Source: Pirellulales bacterium
GTDB lineage: Bacteria > Planctomycetota > Planctomycetia > Pirellulales > JAICIG01
Assembly: GCA_025927475.1 (NCBI GenBank)
Contig: JAICLL010000007.1
Span: forward strand, 1 to 64,000
Reading direction: 5' to 3'
DNA length: 64,000 bases
Shown here: piece after piece, positions 3,684 to 19,809 of the stretch
Layout: each line of letters begins with the position of its first letter
Numbering within the stretch: the stretch's first letter is position 1
Notes under the pieces: generated by a model
What the model was told of the DNA's origin: nothing
Seen by the model: the letters and a program-made list of their open reading frames with translations, nothing else
Database searches by the model: none
Program-made: the position numbers and the translations under genes

Positions 3684-4085
3684 TCAAATCAGCATGCGCC
3701 GACGCTCTGATTTGATTCGCGCTACTTCGGTCATTAACGCGGCCCGCCGTTCGTCGGCAGGGAGCTGTTTCACTTCCTTCATTGGGTACCATCCTACGGG
3801 CTGCGTACCCCCAAAAGAAAGCTGAAAAAGCATCCGCAACGCTTTTGCATCGGAGAATGAGACAGGAACCCCAAGGTTGAGCCTGGCATAGAGCCAGGAC
3901 GAAAGTACGGAAACCAACGGCCTATAGACTACCAGAGTGGTGATGATACTTGCGGCGATGATAGGAATCACGACATCAGCATTTACGCCGAAGATCTGAT
4001 CATGCACGATGAGCGGGATCAAGCTCGTCGAGACTATCGTCAGACACTTCAAGAGCAGATCCCAAATGTGCGAATAGAATAACAC
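3684..4085 (-). CDS. Small membrane protein of unknown function
   Basis: A 133-residue protein that I do not recognise. It starts with GTG, forced by a stop a few codons upstream. Residues 8-30 and 37-65 are hydrophobic and probably form two membrane spans. A soluble, charged C-terminal tail ends in repeated Arg/Lys (ARIKSERRRM). Composition is more AT-rich than the neighbours, with codons such as TTA and AAA being common, which hints at more recent acquisition or relaxed selection. It begins 15 nt after the end of the PL11 lyase gene on the same strand, so it could be co-transcribed with it. No functional prediction is possible. Confidence 0.5.
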   Translation of the reverse strand: MLFYSHIWDLLLKCLTIVSTSLIPLIVHDQIFGVNADVVIPIIAASIITTLVVYRPLVSVLSSWLYARLNLGVPVSFSDAKALRMLFQLSFGGTQPVGWYPMKEVKQLPADERRAALMTEVARIKSERRRMLI

Positions 4086-10283: not shown

Positions 10284-11288
10284 TCACGCCGCGCGCGATC
10301 TGGCCGGCAGCGATCCTGCCGGCGGCAAGCGCCGCCCGCGATATTTCCGCAAGGAAGGCAGCTCGCCAAAGGCCCGTGCAATGACCTTCAGACGGGCGCC
10401 GGTCGCCGCGCCGGTGTGGCGAGGATAATGCGAAACCGGCACTTCGTTAAACGGCAGGCCGCTGTGTACGCACTGCGTCATGATCTCCGCATTGATGCAG
10501 GCGCCGGTCGACGTCGTTTGCAGGCGGCCGACTAGCTCGCGGCGGAACAGCTTGAAGGCGCAGTCAAGATCGCGCATCCGCACGCCCAACACGCCGCCCA
10601 CCAATCGTCCCCAGGCCCAGGCGTTCAGTTTGCGGGGCCAACGATCGGCGCGGCTGCGGCGGAATCCGACCACCAAATCATTACCACCCAAGTACACCAA
10701 CAAGTGCGCCACGTCGAGAAAGTTAAACTGCCCGTCGCTGTCGGCAAACATCACCAGCTCGCCGGTGGCGGCCCGCAAAGCCGTGGTCACCGCCGCGCCG
10801 TAGCCGCGATTGACCTCGTGGCGAATCAATCGTACCCGCGAATCGTTTTGGGCGACGGCGGTCACGCGTTTGGCCGTTTCGTCGCGCGAGCCATCATCGA
10901 CGACGACAATTTCAAAGCCGGCGACATAATGTGGCAAAATCGCCCGGGCCGAGCGCAGCGTGGCCGTAATATTGTCTTGCTCGTTGAAGGCGGGCAGACA
11001 AAGCGAAAGCGTCTCGGGCCGCGGAAAGCCCGGTCCGTCGAATTCCGCTCGCAACGACCGCGCCACCCATTGCGCTTGTCGCGCGACGATCTCGTCGGCA
11101 TCGGCGGGGCTGAGCAATCCGCGGCGGATGAGCAGCTCGCCCAGCAGTCCGCCGCCGGTGTGTTGCTCTGCCAGACAGTCTTCGAGATCGGCCACGCGCA
11201 CTTTGCCGACTTGCCGGGCGAACTCGCCAAAACGCGGCCAGCGAACGCTCAGTCGCTCGGCGTGTCGCAGGGAGAGGGTTGCTGTCAT
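10284..11288 (-). CDS. Family 2 glycosyltransferase with an MshEN/GspE-N-like N-terminal domain
   Basis: A 334-residue protein. Residues 93-300 form a GT-A fold like dolichyl/undecaprenyl-phosphate mannosyl- or glucosyltransferases: LCLPAFNEQDNI, VVVDDGSRDET, NRGYGAAVTTAL, MFADSDGQF (DxD) and the conserved RDLDCAFKLFRRELV. Unlike many DPM1-like enzymes, it has no C-terminal membrane spans. The first 80 residues resemble the MshEN module of type II secretion ATPases, with LLGELLIRRGLLSPADADE followed by ARQ. In MshE such repeats bind cyclic di-GMP. The ArnT-like transferase lies immediately upstream on the same strand, with a 23-nt gap. A natural model is that this GT2 makes the polyprenyl-phosphate sugar used by the upstream membrane transferase. 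Confidence 0.82.
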   Translation of the reverse strand: MTATLSLRHAERLSVRWPRFGEFARQVGKVRVADLEDCLAEQHTGGGLLGELLIRRGLLSPADADEIVARQAQWVARSLRAEFDGPGFPRPETLSLCLPAFNEQDNITATLRSARAILPHYVAGFEIVVVDDGSRDETAKRVTAVAQNDSRVRLIRHEVNRGYGAAVTTALRAATGELVMFADSDGQFNFLDVAHLLVYLGGNDLVVGFRRSRADRWPRKLNAWAWGRLVGGVLGVRMRDLDCAFKLFRRELVGRLQTTSTGACINAEIMTQCVHSGLPFNEVPVSHYPRHTGAATGARLKVIARAFGELPSLRKYRGRRLPPAGSLPARSRAA

Positions 11289-11311: not shown

Positions 11312-13123
11312 TCAGTTCGCATGCGTCGCGTGGTTCGAGCGCGCCGAAAGGCGCGGTCCGTCACGGCCCAGCAACAAGATTTCACGCGATCGCAGAAACC
11401 ATGGCCGGCGATCAAGCACCGCCACGTCGGTGGGCAAGAGGTCAGCCAGCCGCGCGTAATCTTTATCATTGGTAAACACGAAGGCGTCGTTCGGATGCTC
11501 ACGGAAGAAGGCGCCGACATCTTCCGGCGCGAAGACCTGCCGCACCGGCTGTCGGGCGTAATACACCAGGCTTGGCCGGTAATATCCAAAAGCGCGAATC
11601 GCCGGCGCGGTTCCGGCCGCGGCTTGATGAATGACCCCGGCAAAGGAAGCACTCGTCTGATGGCGATCGACGCGCGGCCCCGCCCAGGCGAACAACGTCA
11701 GGCTCCAGACCGCGGCGGCGGCGGCCAACGACCAAGCGGCGCCCAACGGCTCGGTCCGCCGGCTGAACCGCCAGGCCATCGCCGCGCCGGCGATGAGCGG
11801 CACTCCGCAGAGCAACAGAATCGGATCGCCATGCAAGTATTTGGCCGCCACGATCGGCGCCGCAATCATCATCGCCAGTCCGACCAGCCCGAGTGTCAGC
11901 CACGCGGCGGTCAAGTCGCTTCGGGCAGCCAGTTGCGGTCGCCGCAGCCAGGCCTCGATCCAACTGCCTACCAGCAACGCCAACGCGGGATAGATGGGCA
12001 AGATATAGTTGGGCAGCTTGGTTCTGGCGGAGGAAAGCACCACCAGATAGACACCGATCCAACAGGCCAAGAACAAATAGCTCGGTTGCCATCTTCGCTC
12101 GAGGCGCATTTGCTGAGCCGCCCGGCGCAAAGCAGGACCAAGAAACACCGACCAGGGGAATAGTCCGATCAGCACCGCGATGACGTAGTAAAAGAACGGC
12201 CCGCTGTGGTGCTCCATCGGCCGCAAGAACCGGCCCAGGTTGTGGACTCCAAAAAAGCCGGCGGGCCAGGCGCCGTCGGTGCGCACGCCCACCCACACAT
12301 ACCAAGGTCCCGCCACCGCCAGGATCGCCACGATGGCCGTCAGCGGTCGCATACTCCAGGTCGTCCGCAGCACGTGCCCGGGGTGAAACACCGCCGCGAT
12401 GAATCGGACCAAACGGCCCATCCGCGCGGTCCATGTCGCGCGCCCGTCGTCGGCCGGCGGTTTTTCAGATCGGTTTAATCGGGCGATGAGCAGATACATG
12501 CCGAGAGTGGCTGTCGGCAGCACCACGCCCACGGGACCTTTGGCCAGGGCCGCGACGCCCATCGCCGCGTAGACGGCAAGGTAATCTCGCCACCGCAGAT
12601 TGGCGCTCAGCGGCAACGTGGCCTCGTTGGCCACGGGTAGCTCGCTCTTACGGGGCCGCCGCGCGGCGCCCGCCACAAAGGCATACAGAGCGATCGCCGA
12701 AAAGAACACCAAGAGCGAATCGGGCGTTGCCGCCCGCATCACCACATCAAAGTTCAAGCTCGTGGCCAATACGACGCCGGCCCAAAAGCCGACCTGCGCT
12801 GAGAAGAGTTTGCGCCCCAATTGCCACGTGAGCAGCACGCTGGCCACGCCGAACAGCGCCGAACCGCAACGGGCGGCAAACTCGGTGGCCCCGAACATCA
12901 GATACCCGCCGATCATCACCCAATACATCAACACCGGCTTGTCGGGCAAAACCTGGCCGTTGAAGTAAGGGACGACCCAATCACCGCGGTCGAGCATTTC
13001 AAGCGCGGCGCCGGCGAAGATCGGCTCGTCTTCGTCCCAAAGCTGAGCGGTGCCCAGCCGGGTGAAAAGCACCACCGCCGCCAGGGTCAACAAAACAACA
13101 AACTGCTTGGCGGGATGTGCCAT
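11312..13123 (-). CDS. ArnT/PMT-like membrane glycosyltransferase (GT39/GT83 type)
   Basis: A polytopic inner-membrane protein of about 603 residues that would transfer a sugar from a polyprenyl phosphate donor to lipid or protein on the periplasmic side. The N-terminal periplasmic loop has the catalytic acidic motif LWDEDEPIFAGAALEM just after the first span. It is followed by FNGQVLPDKPVLMYW and AARCGSALFG, all typical of the ArnT/PMT superfamily. About eleven hydrophobic spans follow. The ATG at 13123, directly before the first hydrophobic segment, is preferred over an upstream in-frame ATG that would add 36 unlikely residues. It pairs with the downstream GT2. Confidence 0.83.
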   Translation of the reverse strand: MAHPAKQFVVLLTLAAVVLFTRLGTAQLWDEDEPIFAGAALEMLDRGDWVVPYFNGQVLPDKPVLMYWVMIGGYLMFGATEFAARCGSALFGVASVLLTWQLGRKLFSAQVGFWAGVVLATSLNFDVVMRAATPDSLLVFFSAIALYAFVAGAARRPRKSELPVANEATLPLSANLRWRDYLAVYAAMGVAALAKGPVGVVLPTATLGMYLLIARLNRSEKPPADDGRATWTARMGRLVRFIAAVFHPGHVLRTTWSMRPLTAIVAILAVAGPWYVWVGVRTDGAWPAGFFGVHNLGRFLRPMEHHSGPFFYYVIAVLIGLFPWSVFLGPALRRAAQQMRLERRWQPSYLFLACWIGVYLVVLSSARTKLPNYILPIYPALALLVGSWIEAWLRRPQLAARSDLTAAWLTLGLVGLAMMIAAPIVAAKYLHGDPILLLCGVPLIAGAAMAWRFSRRTEPLGAAWSLAAAAAVWSLTLFAWAGPRVDRHQTSASFAGVIHQAAAGTAPAIRAFGYYRPSLVYYARQPVRQVFAPEDVGAFFREHPNDAFVFTNDKDYARLADLLPTDVAVLDRRPWFLRSREILLLGRDGPRLSARSNHATHAN

Positions 13124-13406
13124 CTGTGGCGTGAAATGCAAAGTAAGAGCGCGGCACGAGCGCGAGGGGCGTGACCGGCGGTTTCCGCCTGAATGTGCGG
13201 CGATGCTACCTTCGCACTCCACCCGCGGCAAGCCCGGTTTTCAGAGAACCGAGCACCGGAAACCGTATCCCGATCGTGACACAGAAAAGCGAGCATTGGC
13301 ATTCTTGCTTGGCCGATTCTCGGGCCGCGTATTGCGATCGGGCGAACATCTAGTCCCCGAAGGGGCGGTTGAATGATTATTATCTATCGGTAATCGGAAC
13401 GATCGC

Positions 13407-15913: not shown

Positions 15914-16005
15914 CCCGCCGGCGTAGCGGAGGCCGCTCGACAGGCAAAGCGTATCGAAATACACTGGCGTCGTTTTAATGATTGCTTTGTTTCGAGCTTG
16001 CCCCG

Positions 16006-17967
16006 ATGGTTGAAGCCGAGAGGTTGAACCGCGCCTACCAACTCGCTTGCCGCGAGCTGCTTGCGCGCCGGACGCCCGCCGGTCATTGGGAAGGATGCCT
16101 GGCTAGTTCGGCTTTGGCGACGGCGACAGCGGTGAGCGCGCTGAGCCTCGTTCAGAAGGAACGCGGTGGTGAGCCGCCTACGGCTGGTCTGTCTCGCCCG
16201 GCGTATGAGCGATGCAAGCCTGATGAATTGATTTCCCGCGGCCTCGCCTGGCTGGCGCGGGCGCAGAACGCCGATGGCGGTTGGGGAGATACCGATAAGA
16301 GCCTCTCGAACATCGCCACCACCATGCTGGTGCGGGCCGCCTTTGAATTGGCGGGCGCCGCGCAAGACCATGCCCGTCTGCTCATCCGCGCCGAAGAGTA
16401 CATCGCTTCGCAAGGCGGCGTGGCTGGCTTGCGACGACGCTATGGCCGCGACAAAACGTTCGCGGCGCCAATTCTGACGAATTGCGCATTGGCGGGCCTT
16501 GCCTCGTGGCGAGAAGTTTCGGCGCTGCCCTTCGAGTTGGCGTGTTTGCCGCAGTCGTGGTATCGCTTCTTGCGATTGCCCGTGGTGAGTTACGCCATTC
16601 CGGCCTTAGTCGCCATCGGACAAGCTCGCTATTTCCACCGCCGGCCGCTGAATCCGTTGGTGCGGCTATGGCGTTCGGCGGCGGTGAGGCGCAGCCGGCG
16701 GGTGTTGGAACAAATGCAACCGGCCAGCGGCGGATTCTTAGAAGCGACGCCGCTGACGAGTTTTGTGGTGATGAGTCTGGCCAGCGTCGGCCACCTCGGG
16801 CATCCCGTGACGCAGCGCGGACGGGAGTTCCTCGTTCGATCTGCTCGCCCCGATGGCTCATGGCCGATCGATACGAACCTGGCCACCTGGGTGACGACGT
16901 TGTCGATCAATGCGCTCGCCGATGATTCTGCTTCGCTCGCGCAATGCGCGCCATCGCTCGATTGGCTGCTCGATTGCCAATGCCAACAGACGCATCCCTA
17001 TACGGGCGCGGCGCCGGGCGGGTGGGGCTGGAGCGATCTGAGCGGGTCGGTACCCGACGCCGATGATACGCCTGGCGCGCTGTTGGCGTTGGCAAAGCTC
17101 GACGAGCTAGATCGTTCGCGTTCGGACGGCCGGCCCCAAGGGCCGGGGCAAGCAAACCGGCCACAAGGGGCGGGGCTACCGGAAGACGTGCGCCGCGATG
17201 GCATCGTCCAGGCGGCCCGGCGCGGCATGGTTTGGTTGCTCGATTTGCAAAACTCCGATGGCGGCTGGCCCACGTTCTGTCGCGGTTGGGGCAAGCTGCC
17301 GTTCGACCGCAGCGGCGCCGACCTGACGGCGCATGTCGTAAGGGCGTTGGCGGTCTGGCGAAATAAGCCGTCGCTGTGGGCTGGCGAACAACAAAAGCAC
17401 GCGCGACGCATCGACCGGGCCATCGAGCGGGGCTTCGCGTTTTTATCGCGGCGGCAGCAACCCGACGGCTCTTGGCTGCCACTCTGGTTCGGGAACCAAT
17501 ACCATCCGCAGGAGGAAAACCCGATTTACGGCACCGCTCGTGTACTTCTGGCCTACCACGAACTGGGGCGGTCTGGGTCGCCCGCCGCCCAGCGAGGCCG
17601 GGCGTGGCTGGTCTCGCAACAACGCCGCGACGGCAGTTGGGGCCTTGCCCTTTCTGCCGCCCACACAAGCGTTTGCGGCGAGGCGTCGAGCGTGGAAGAG
17701 ACAGCCCTGGCCGTCGAAGCCCTCGTGCGAGAAGCCGCCAGCCCGCAAGAGCGGCAGGCGATCGAGCGTGGGGTGGCTTGGCTGGTCGAAGCCGTCGAAT
17801 CGGGCCGGTGGCAGGAAAGCTCGCCCATCGGTTTCTACTTCGCCAAGTTATGGTATTATGAGACCCTCTATCCGCTGATCTTTACGGTCGCGGCCCTCGG
17901 GCGGGCCGTGGCTCGACCGGCGGACAGCCAGCCCCAAGCCCACCACCTGAACGAACTCTGCGCCTGA
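16006..17967 (+). CDS. Class II terpene cyclase, squalene-hopene cyclase family
   Basis: A protein of about 653 residues with the alpha/alpha-barrel repeats of squalene-hopene cyclases. QW-type motifs are plain: QNADGGWGDTD (about residue 85), LQNSDGGWPTF, RRQQPDGSWLPLWFGNQ and QQRRDGSWG. The protonating motif DxDD is present as DADD at residues 351-354. The enzyme should cyclise a linear polyprenyl chain by protonation, probably peripherally bound to the membrane. Substrate could be squalene or a C30-C35 polyprene. Hopanoid genes hpnCDE are not nearby, whereas a polyprenyl synthase follows 21 nt downstream. Residues about 373-393, rich in Gly, Pro and Gln, are encoded by a repeat (next entry). 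ATG 16006 is preferred over an in-frame TTG at 15982. Confidence 0.85.
   Translation: MVEAERLNRAYQLACRELLARRTPAGHWEGCLASSALATATAVSALSLVQKERGGEPPTAGLSRPAYERCKPDELISRGLAWLARAQNADGGWGDTDKSLSNIATTMLVRAAFELAGAAQDHARLLIRAEEYIASQGGVAGLRRRYGRDKTFAAPILTNCALAGLASWREVSALPFELACLPQSWYRFLRLPVVSYAIPALVAIGQARYFHRRPLNPLVRLWRSAAVRRSRRVLEQMQPASGGFLEATPLTSFVVMSLASVGHLGHPVTQRGREFLVRSARPDGSWPIDTNLATWVTTLSINALADDSASLAQCAPSLDWLLDCQCQQTHPYTGAAPGGWGWSDLSGSVPDADDTPGALLALAKLDELDRSRSDGRPQGPGQANRPQGAGLPEDVRRDGIVQAARRGMVWLLDLQNSDGGWPTFCRGWGKLPFDRSGADLTAHVVRALAVWRNKPSLWAGEQQKHARRIDRAIERGFAFLSRRQQPDGSWLPLWFGNQYHPQEENPIYGTARVLLAYHELGRSGSPAAQRGRAWLVSQQRRDGSWGLALSAAHTSVCGEASSVEETALAVEALVREAASPQERQAIERGVAWLVEAVESGRWQESSPIGFYFAKLWYYETLYPLIFTVAALGRAVARPADSQPQAHHLNELCA
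17129..17180 (+). repeat. GC-rich palindromic repeat inside the cyclase coding sequence
   Basis: Two adjacent copies of a GCCGGCC-CAAGGGCCGGGGC-type palindrome (17129-17149 and 17154-17180) lie in frame within the cyclase gene. The second copy matches, with few changes, the intergenic tandem repeat at 39231-39286. It encodes the low-complexity segment DGRPQGPGQANRPQGAGLP between the DxDD motif and the next QW repeat. Confidence 0.65.
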
Positions 17968-17988
17968 CCGACCTCTTGAGGCCCCACC

Positions 17989-19809
17989 TTGGCGACCGCC
18001 CCCGTCGAATCTCAACCTGTTTCGCACTCCGCCGCGGCGCCGAAAAAGCCGCGGCGCCGCAACACCAGTCACCTGAAGCTCGTGCCCGAAACTCGCGCCT
18101 TGCGCGAGCAGGTGCGGGCCGCTTGCGCCCAAACGGCTGAGCGGCTCGATAAATCGCGCCCCTTGAGCAAAGACGAGCTGGAAGCCATTGCCCGCGGCGT
18201 GCTGGCCGCGCACGACTGGCCCGAGGGCTTTTTGGGCTGGGCCATGGTCGAGGTGGCCAGCCATTTCTGGTCGTCGCAGGTGGCGGCGGTTCCCTTTGAA
18301 CGGCGGCTCTTCTTGTTGCCGCACTGCCTGAAACATGCTGAAGGCTGCCCGGCAGACTATGACGATTTCGGGCTCGATTGCCGGAAGTGCGGCGCCTGCC
18401 GCATTGCCGACTTCCGCACGCAAGCCGAAGAGCTGGGCTATAAAGTGTTGGTGGCCGAGGGCTCGCCGATCGTGCTAAAAATCATCGTCGGCGGTTATGT
18501 CGATGCGATCGTCGGCGTGGCCTGCCTGAACGTGTTGGAGAAAGCGATCGACAAGATTCTCTTGGCCGGCATTCCCTGTCTGGCGGTGCCGTTGCTCTCA
18601 AGCGATTGCCGCAATACTTCGGTCGATGAAGACTGGGTGTTCGAGGCGATTCATCGCCGGGAAGAGGCGCCCCAAACGCAGACCAAGACTTATCTGCACC
18701 TGATGCGCGCCGCGACCAGCCTGTTCGAGCCAGACAAGCTCGAACGCCTGGCCCCGCGGCTGCGCGGCGGTCCGTCGCTGGCTGAGCGCAACGGGCAGGG
18801 CCTGCTGGGCATCGACCCGGTTGCCGGTACCGAGCTAATCGCCTACGACTTTCTGGCCAAGGGGGGCAAGCACTCGCGGCCCTTTATCACGCTGGCCATC
18901 TACGACGCGCTGACCGGCGGCCAAGGCGCCGCGGCCGGCGGCGCCGAGCATCTGGCCACGCTGCCCGACTGGGTCAAACGGGCGGCCCTTTCCATCGAAA
19001 CCTTTCACAAAGCCTCGCTCGTCCATGACGACATCGAAGACAACGACCCTTATCGCTATGGCGACGCCACCTTGCACCGGAAATTTGGCATCGCCACGGC
19101 GATCAATGTGGGCGACTATCTGATTGGGCTGGGCTACCGGCTCATCAGCCGCGATGCCGCCCACATGGGAGCCGAAGCCGCCGCCGACATCGTCGACCGC
19201 CTGGCCGACGCTCATTTGAAGCTGGCCGAGGGACAAGGCGCCGAGCTGCTGTGGCGCGACTCGCTCGAAAAGAAGCTCACGCCGCTCGACGCTTTGAAGA
19301 TTTACGCGCTCAAAACCGCCCCGGCTTTCGAGGCCGCCATTTATTCCGGGCTGCGGCTGGCCGGGCCGCCAGCCGACGCCGCCTGGGTGAGCCAATTTGC
19401 GCGAAACCTGGGCGTCGCCTTTCAGATTCTCAACGATCTGAACGATTGGCAATCCGACGAGCACAACAAGCTGGTCGCCGCGGGCGATGTGCTGGGCGGC
19501 CGACCGACCGTGCTGTGGGCGTTGGCGCTCGAAGGGCTGGATGCCGAAAACCGCGCCGAGTTGGAATCGCTCGTCACGGCCGATACGGTGAGCGACGCCA
19601 CGCTACAACGAGTTCGCCAACTCTATGCTTCGGCCGGCGTATTCGATAACGCGGCACGGCTGGTCGATAAATATCAGCAGCGCTGCGAGCAGGTAGCCGA
19701 CGCGGTCGAGCCAGAAGAGCTGCGGCGGCTGCTCTATTACTTGGTAGATACCGTATTGGAACGTCCCGCCGCCGAAGAGCCGCAAGTGTTGGCGCTGACG
19801 CTGCCATGA
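17989..19809 (+). CDS. DUF116-polyprenyl diphosphate synthase fusion
   Basis: A 606-residue two-part protein. Residues about 25-235 resemble DUF116, a cysteine-rich domain with [12 protein letters not shown], then [13 protein letters not shown], and a hydrophobic [18 protein letters not shown]. The cysteines could hold a metal or Fe-S cluster. Residues about 285-590 are a trans-prenyltransferase: GGKHSRPF binds the allylic diphosphate, and the first aspartate-rich motif is DDIED at 347-351. The second motif is NDLND (482-486), in place of the usual DDxxD. The start is TTG at 17989, 8 nt after GAGG; no ATG offers a comparable site. It probably supplies the linear prenyl diphosphate for the cyclase just upstream. 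Confidence 0.82.

Follow-up and report, generated by a model that had tools for sequence, protein, structure and literature searches.

Among glycosyltransferases, direct control by cyclic di-GMP (c-di-GMP) has been described for membrane-bound synthases of the processive type (NfrB and cellulose synthase), the control of cellulose synthase being exerted through PilZ. The polyprenyl-phosphate GT2 enzymes of the ArnC/GtrB type carry C-terminal transmembrane helices. For E. coli NfrB, residues for c-di-GMP binding and for glycosyltransferase activity were both found to be required for infection by phage N4, and this work indicates that activation of a GT2 domain through MshEN is possible (PMC8669469). 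NfrB carries its MshEN domain at the C terminus and has two putative membrane helices and glycosyltransferase motifs of the processive type (PMC8669469). The work that described the domain as two 24-residue motifs joined by a 5-residue spacer already states that fusions of MshEN to glycosyltransferases can occur (PMC5013675).

The 334-residue protein described here is encoded in a 64,000-nucleotide stretch of DNA from a Pirellulales bacterium (the whole stretch analysed, henceforth the window). It shares with NfrB the joining of a GT2 domain to MshEN and, as a proposal in the present case, the use of c-di-GMP as a regulator of surface polysaccharide; unlike NfrB, it has only an MshEN_N, placed at the N terminus ahead of an ArnC/DPMS-like catalytic domain, and hydropathy shows no membrane helix. 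With the MshEN domain of Vibrio cholerae MshE and the GSPII-B domain of Thermus thermophilus PilF it has in common the two 24-residue motifs, the 5-residue spacer and four helices (here predicted), and like PilF GSPII-B it has Leu as the first residue of motif II. It differs from MshE and PilF in having neither MshEN_C nor an ATPase, in an A-R-Q sequence that replaces hydrophobic core residues of motif I, and in an apparently eroded pocket for the second guanine. ArnC, GtrB and dolichyl-phosphate mannose synthase (DPMS) are the best fold matches of its full-length model, and the gene beside it, ArnT-like in the window and in genome G004 and of family GT87 in G035, is as would be expected of a lipid-linked sugar donor of their kind; the protein departs from these enzymes in lacking C-terminal membrane helices and in carrying an extra sensor-like domain. 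A GT2-MshEN fusion is thus known from NfrB, and what is new here is the N-terminal, MshEN_N-only form on a soluble ArnC/DPMS-type enzyme, to which the family-specific A-R-Q of motif I and the gene cluster add further distinct features. A search of titles and abstract openings in a partial literature collection found no N-terminal MshEN on an ArnC/DPMS-type GT2.

An MshEN homologue at the N terminus of a GT2 protein

The features of the locus are as follows.

10284..11288, minus strand: GT2 gene from the ORF list, encoding a 334-aa protein with an MshEN-like N-terminus and a GT2 domain
11076..11234, minus strand: MshEN_N-like domain, residues 19-71 (53 aa), matched by NF053729 at 53/53 positions
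11163..11234, minus strand: motif I, residues 19-42, with R19, G21, L35, L39, Q42 and F20
11076..11147, minus strand: motif II, residues 48-71, with L48, A64 and V68; G50, G57 and Q71 kept
10389..11015, minus strand: GT2 catalytic domain, about residues 92-300, ArnC/GtrB/DPMS-like (PF00535, Foldseek), with DSDGQ at 183-187
11312..13231, minus strand: ArnT-like GT-C protein (PMT_2; PF13231, NF009784), 23 bp upstream of the GT2 gene

About 90 residues precede the GT2 domain. Residues 19-71 match the NCBIfam model NF053729 (a c-di-GMP motif model, MshE-related) over its full length, with 33.5 bits (E 2.7e-8) for the full protein, 36.8 bits for residues 1-91 alone and 37.4 bits (E 1.6e-8) in a whole-genome search, all three scores lying below the curated cut-off of 38 bits. 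The same model has two matches in the genome, this protein and a PilB/GspE-like ATPase (51.9 bits). The ATPase (G000:C52:46824-46973) passes the cut-off despite a degenerate motif I, with D, T, Q and A at positions 1, 3, 21 and 24. A Pfam search of the 334-aa protein gave no T2SSE_N/MshEN match at E up to 1, so that the assignment rests on NCBIfam and on searches of PDB sequences. In the latter, phmmer aligned PilF with residues 18-90 (E 1.6e-5) and recovered MshE 5htl only weakly (E 0.69). A profile built from the window protein and seven other family members found PilF at 1.4e-12 and MshE 5htl at 1.1e-6, with both alignments falling on the motif region. The NfrB model scored 11.9 bits on the isolated N-terminus, against a cut-off of 1170. 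Judged by its NF053729, PilF and MshE matches, the N-terminal region of the window GT2 is a homologue of MshEN.

A preliminary description of this DNA had placed an MshEN-like repeat in residues 1-80, and the NF053729 and family-profile matches bear this out. It had considered only one of the two repeats clear, a view that has to be revised, as motif I (19-42), the spacer (43-47) and motif II (48-71) give the canonical 24+5+24 arrangement of 53 residues. The HMM search that it proposed gave a mixed outcome, with a significant but sub-threshold NCBIfam match and nothing for the Pfam T2SSE_N/MshEN profiles. The Arg and Gly ligands, whose absence would have told against its reading, are largely in place (R19, G21, G28, G50 and G57), although the second Arg is replaced by Leu.

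An AlphaFold model of the isolated domain, built with two sequences in the alignment, had a pLDDT of 73.3 and a pTM of 0.58, with block means of pLDDT of 78-90 over residues 21-80. After a short N-terminal helix it contains four helices (20-27, 32-46, 49-55 and 61-83). The first 12 of 40 Foldseek rows were MshE/PilF domains, none of them significant (E 0.43-3.2), and VIA-align gave a Z of 4.3 to MshE 5htl_A, tied with unrelated fumarases (4.0). The fold comparison of the predicted domain is consistent with MshEN and too weak to count alone.

The two guanine pockets

Contact residues were taken from the list in PMC5013675, the window number being that of the V. cholerae MshE residue plus 10. 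The contacts of the first guanine (MshE R9, G11, L25, L29, Q32 and L39) are complete in the window protein as R19, G21, L35, L39, Q42 and L49. Those of the second guanine (R38, G40, L54, L58, Q61 and L10) correspond to L48, G50, A64, V68, Q71 and F20, and on this alignment the second pocket is eroded at L48, F20, A64 and V68. Against the extended strict consensus, motif I of the window copy fits at 7 of 11 positions and motif II at 9 of 11.

The published work on MshE and PilF bears on these substitutions in different ways. GSPII-B of PilF has Leu instead of the second Arg and binds c-di-GMP at 6 nM (PMC11731258). In MshE, altering any single conserved hydrophobic residue reduced affinity more than 10-fold (PMC5013675); A64 of the window protein stands where MshE has the large Leu54. 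Another study describes the exact large hydrophobic residues as less important and the motif alone as insufficient for binding; in PilF GSPII-A a perfect consensus failed to restore binding until further features were altered too (PMC12002112), so that motif residues by themselves are no proof of binding. The lack of MshEN_C in the window protein need not matter, because MshE 1-62, which is MshEN_N alone, binds c-di-GMP with a KD of 0.35 uM (PMC5013675). With the second guanine pocket decayed, c-di-GMP sensing by the window copy is probably weaker than that of its relatives or already lost.

Across the nine domains of the family described below, the twelve c-di-GMP contact positions have a mean pairwise identity of 0.671, compared with 0.429 over all 53 positions (permutation p 0.0007). 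For the first-guanine set the identity is 0.745 (p 0.004); for the second it is 0.597 (p 0.077), not clearly above the rest. These p values overstate independence because the nine sequences are related. The residues equivalent to MshE G11, L29 and Q32 are invariant in 9/9. Under a permissive rule (R/K/L; L/I/V; F accepted for L10), all twelve contacts are present in six of the nine proteins, with 11 in the window protein and in G035 and 8 in that of Planctomycetales bacterium SW_37; as the rule was set after the family had been seen these counts are generous, and the permutation test is independent of it. By the strict measure, G201 alone combines a perfect motif II with the exact residue at each of the twelve contacts, motif II of G436 being unscored. 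NF053729 passes its cut-off in 3/9 N-termini, those of G035 (38.2 bits), G201 (45.7) and G157 (39.2).

The family also has peculiarities of its own. Position 7 of motif I, where the consensus is L/V/I, is R in 9/9; R-Q stands at positions 7-8 in 9/9, preceded by Ala in 8/9. The middle Gly of motif I is missing from 7/9 and kept only by the window protein and G213. R25, Q26, A72, W74 and A76 are invariant in eight aligned sequences, and none of them is a known ligand contact. The 24+5+24 spacing is exact in 8/9 proteins, the exception being G436, whose motif II is longer by two residues; a script check of seven relatives, G436 not among them, put the motif starts 29 residues apart in all seven.

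Distribution and origin of the architecture

A search of 246 genomes of the order with the 334-aa protein gave 32 matching places (E up to 1e-30). Of these, seven extend into the N-terminal domain, starting at or before residue 14 (G000, which is the window's own genome, G035, G213, G110, G201, G157 and G098); the remaining 25 begin at residue 73 or later. A profile of the N-terminus and the start of the GT2 domain matched six of 397 genomes of the class, adding G436 and G483, and only the window's own genome among 392 of the phylum. G213, G201 and G157 are not among the class matches, presumably because they lie outside that sample, although a miss is possible. The architecture is thus present in at least nine planctomycete genomes, these sets being samples in which scoring mostly covered 8 to 11 first-look candidates from each genome, so that all counts are minima. 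The preliminary description had advised a check for other fused GT2 genes, and the samples of order, class and phylum supply them. The G483 sequence is the same as that of the SW_37 record (L033), whose frame (L033:2898-3821) stops at 3794, at about query residue 278; the tblastn match continues to 3821, close to where the contig ends.

In a tree of 38 GT2 domains, some of whose outer rows have very long branches, all nine MshEN-bearing proteins fall in one ten-member clade (98/91). The tenth member is G004, the only other genome from the window's family in the sample, whose GT2 has no MshEN domain; it is sister to the window protein (98/92), with G035 closer by path length. The single NF053729 match of G004 lies on a different contig from its GT2. 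One clade with a domain-less member inside it therefore makes it most likely, as far as the tree can tell, that the MshEN domain was gained once and lost in G004.

Catalytic domain and gene neighbourhoods

The GT2 domain is matched by PF00535 over residues 95-253 (102.3 bits), and D183, D185, G186 and Q187 of its DxD-like motif are invariant in eight sequences. The full-length AlphaFold model (pLDDT 82.5, pTM 0.84), for which the alignment held seven sequences, two of them with the N-terminal domain, has as its best Foldseek matches ArnC 9asc_A (E 2.6e-16), GtrB 9nyd_A (E 3.2e-15) and DPMS 5mlz (E 2.6e-12). Soluble glucosyl-3-phosphoglycerate synthases come next, for example 4y7f at E 2.4e-11, and the strength of these matches leaves a lipid acceptor unproven. 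The 334-aa protein has no hydrophobic membrane segment by Kyte-Doolittle hydropathy, its maximum over 19 residues being 1.27; no 19-residue stretch reaches 1.6 in it or in six MshEN-bearing orthologs, and the domain-less frame of G004 has one such stretch, at 1.71.

The ArnT-like ORF of the window ends 23 bp upstream of the GT2 gene on the same strand. It was counted from the first TTG, and its real start is possibly further in. Its product matches PF13231 (E 1.3e-17) and NF009784 (E 2.5e-38), the 132 bits of the latter being far below the ArnT cut-off of 567. G004 has the same pair of GT2 and GT-C genes, its GT-C protein being 48% identical to that of the window; G035 has a GT87 gene upstream of the GT2 and WecA-like and O-antigen-ligase-like genes downstream. 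Twenty of the 25 order matches without the N-terminal domain sit in frames of 817-866 aa, and the one such frame tested, from G153, joins the GT2 to an ArnT-like PMT domain. This fusion supports a link between GT2 and ArnT-like activities as donor and user. Beside the GT2 region, at 15982-19809 on the plus strand of the window, lie a squalene-hopene-cyclase-like gene and then a DUF116-polyprenyl synthetase gene (PF01976 + PF00348).

In six of the nine genomes the GT2-MshEN gene is the first of a polysaccharide cluster, for which Pfam names were assigned from the G157 cluster only. In G110, G201, G157 and G098 the row is GT2-MshEN, GT4, two PF01663 phosphodiesterase-like genes, a flippase (Wzx-like), an HlyD/RND adaptor and a TPR gene. 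G213 has the first five of these genes, the flippase gene reaching the contig end, and G436 has GT2, GT4, one phosphodiesterase-like gene, flippase and HlyD. With E limited to 1e-40, seven of ten genomes gave a match to the cluster GT4, in G483 on a different contig from the GT2; at that threshold it was not found in G004, in G035 or in the window's genome, an assembly 88.68% complete with 5.32% contamination. The literature search, over the same titles and abstract openings, returned no description of a GT2-MshEN/GT4/phosphodiesterase/flippase/HlyD/TPR cluster.

GGDEF domains occur in all eight genomes tested, with ten matches in that of the window; nine stretches cover all ten, and six of the nine have GG[DE]EF together with an upstream D-x-D-x-F. 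PilZ domains occur in 8 of 10 genomes, with three matches in the window's. These matches suggest that the organism of the window probably makes c-di-GMP and has other possible receptors.

Discussion

On balance, and with a slight lean in its favour, we read this family as c-di-GMP-gated lipid-sugar synthases in which sensing by the window copy has weakened or been lost. In such a scheme a soluble GT2 of the ArnC/GtrB/DPMS kind, probably working at the inner membrane face, would attach a sugar to polyprenyl phosphate as its presumed acceptor. The N-terminal four-helix sensor of MshEN_N type would clamp c-di-GMP between its two 24-residue motifs, one guanine to each, and the bound ligand would move the catalytic domain or change how it assembles, with an effect on activity in either direction, so that c-di-GMP would alter how much sugar reaches a surface glycan. 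The user of the lipid-linked sugar would be the ArnT-like neighbour in the window and the GT4/flippase/HlyD cluster in the relatives. As the most likely mechanism, c-di-GMP control is quite plausible for the cluster of G201, G157 and G098 and doubtful for the window copy.

The preliminary description had named the enzyme a polyprenyl-phosphate glycosyltransferase beside an ArnT-like enzyme and had proposed control of surface glycosylation by a second messenger. The neighbour is real, being matched by PF13231 at the position and orientation given above. The assignment of the glycosyltransferase holds at the level of its ArnC/GtrB/DPMS-like fold, and the soluble-synthase matches keep it from extending to the lipid acceptor. 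The proposal of second-messenger control draws support from the MshEN homology, the glycosyltransferase fold, the ArnT-like neighbour and intact GGDEF signatures, but the eroded second pocket and the domain-less sister G004 weigh against it at this locus.

A broader and more speculative version, to which we would give somewhat less than an even chance, is that planctomycete c-di-GMP gates a soluble enzyme that loads sugar onto polyprenyl phosphate, through an N-terminal MshEN_N and ahead of a surface-glycan cluster, with control at the supply of donor lipid rather than at polymerisation or export; the window would then preserve a switch in decay following the pairing of the enzyme with an ArnT-like partner. 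If this were true, c-di-GMP sensing by a soluble lipid-sugar synthase would act ahead of any polymerase, at a control point that is new, and would provide a testable c-di-GMP output for planctomycetes.

The principal alternative is that the domain descends from MshEN, has lost the ability to bind c-di-GMP and now has a structural or protein-docking role, such as bringing the soluble enzyme to a membrane partner. Homologues that do not bind are described, namely XpsE (PMC5013675) and Xanthomonas PilB (PMC10333796), and a docking role would suit both the five invariant residues outside the known contacts (R25, Q26, A72, W74 and A76) and the erosion of the pocket in the window protein, G035 and SW_37, as well as the loss of the domain in G004. 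Such a module would not, however, be expected to hold MshE contacts G11, L29 and Q32 invariant in all nine proteins, to conserve the contact set above the rest of the domain, or to include a member, G201, with all twelve contact residues, and we consider this explanation rather unlikely, though by no means negligible.

Much less probable is that one guanine half-site has been kept and that another guanine ligand, such as GDP from a GDP-sugar, pGpG or cGAMP, is sensed in place of c-di-GMP. The complete first pocket of the window protein and the higher family conservation of that pocket than of the second would fit, but both pockets are kept in 6/9 proteins under the permissive rule, a GDP-sugar donor has no sequence evidence, and the portions consulted of the papers cited here offer no precedent. 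A chance likeness of leucine-rich helices ahead of an ordinary GT2, to which the sub-threshold NF053729 score, the missing Pfam match and the weak structural matches of the isolated domain might point, is scarcely credible given the genome-wide E of 1.6e-8, the recovery of both MshE and PilF by the family profile, the exact spacing in 8/9 proteins and the conservation of contact positions.

For the preferred reading, a c-di-GMP-gated synthase family, the nine orthologs form a natural series for binding experiments, with pockets that run from intact in G201 to worn in the window protein and SW_37, and with the loss in G004 beyond them.

MshEN-type motifs may occur in a further setting in these genomes. 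At G157:C1:2459862-2460179 and G110:C65:173367-173696, about four 24-residue motifs of this type can be seen by eye in a row, with no ATPase in the frame, and overlapping NF053729 matches are also present at G213:C312, G201:C251 and G098:C37.
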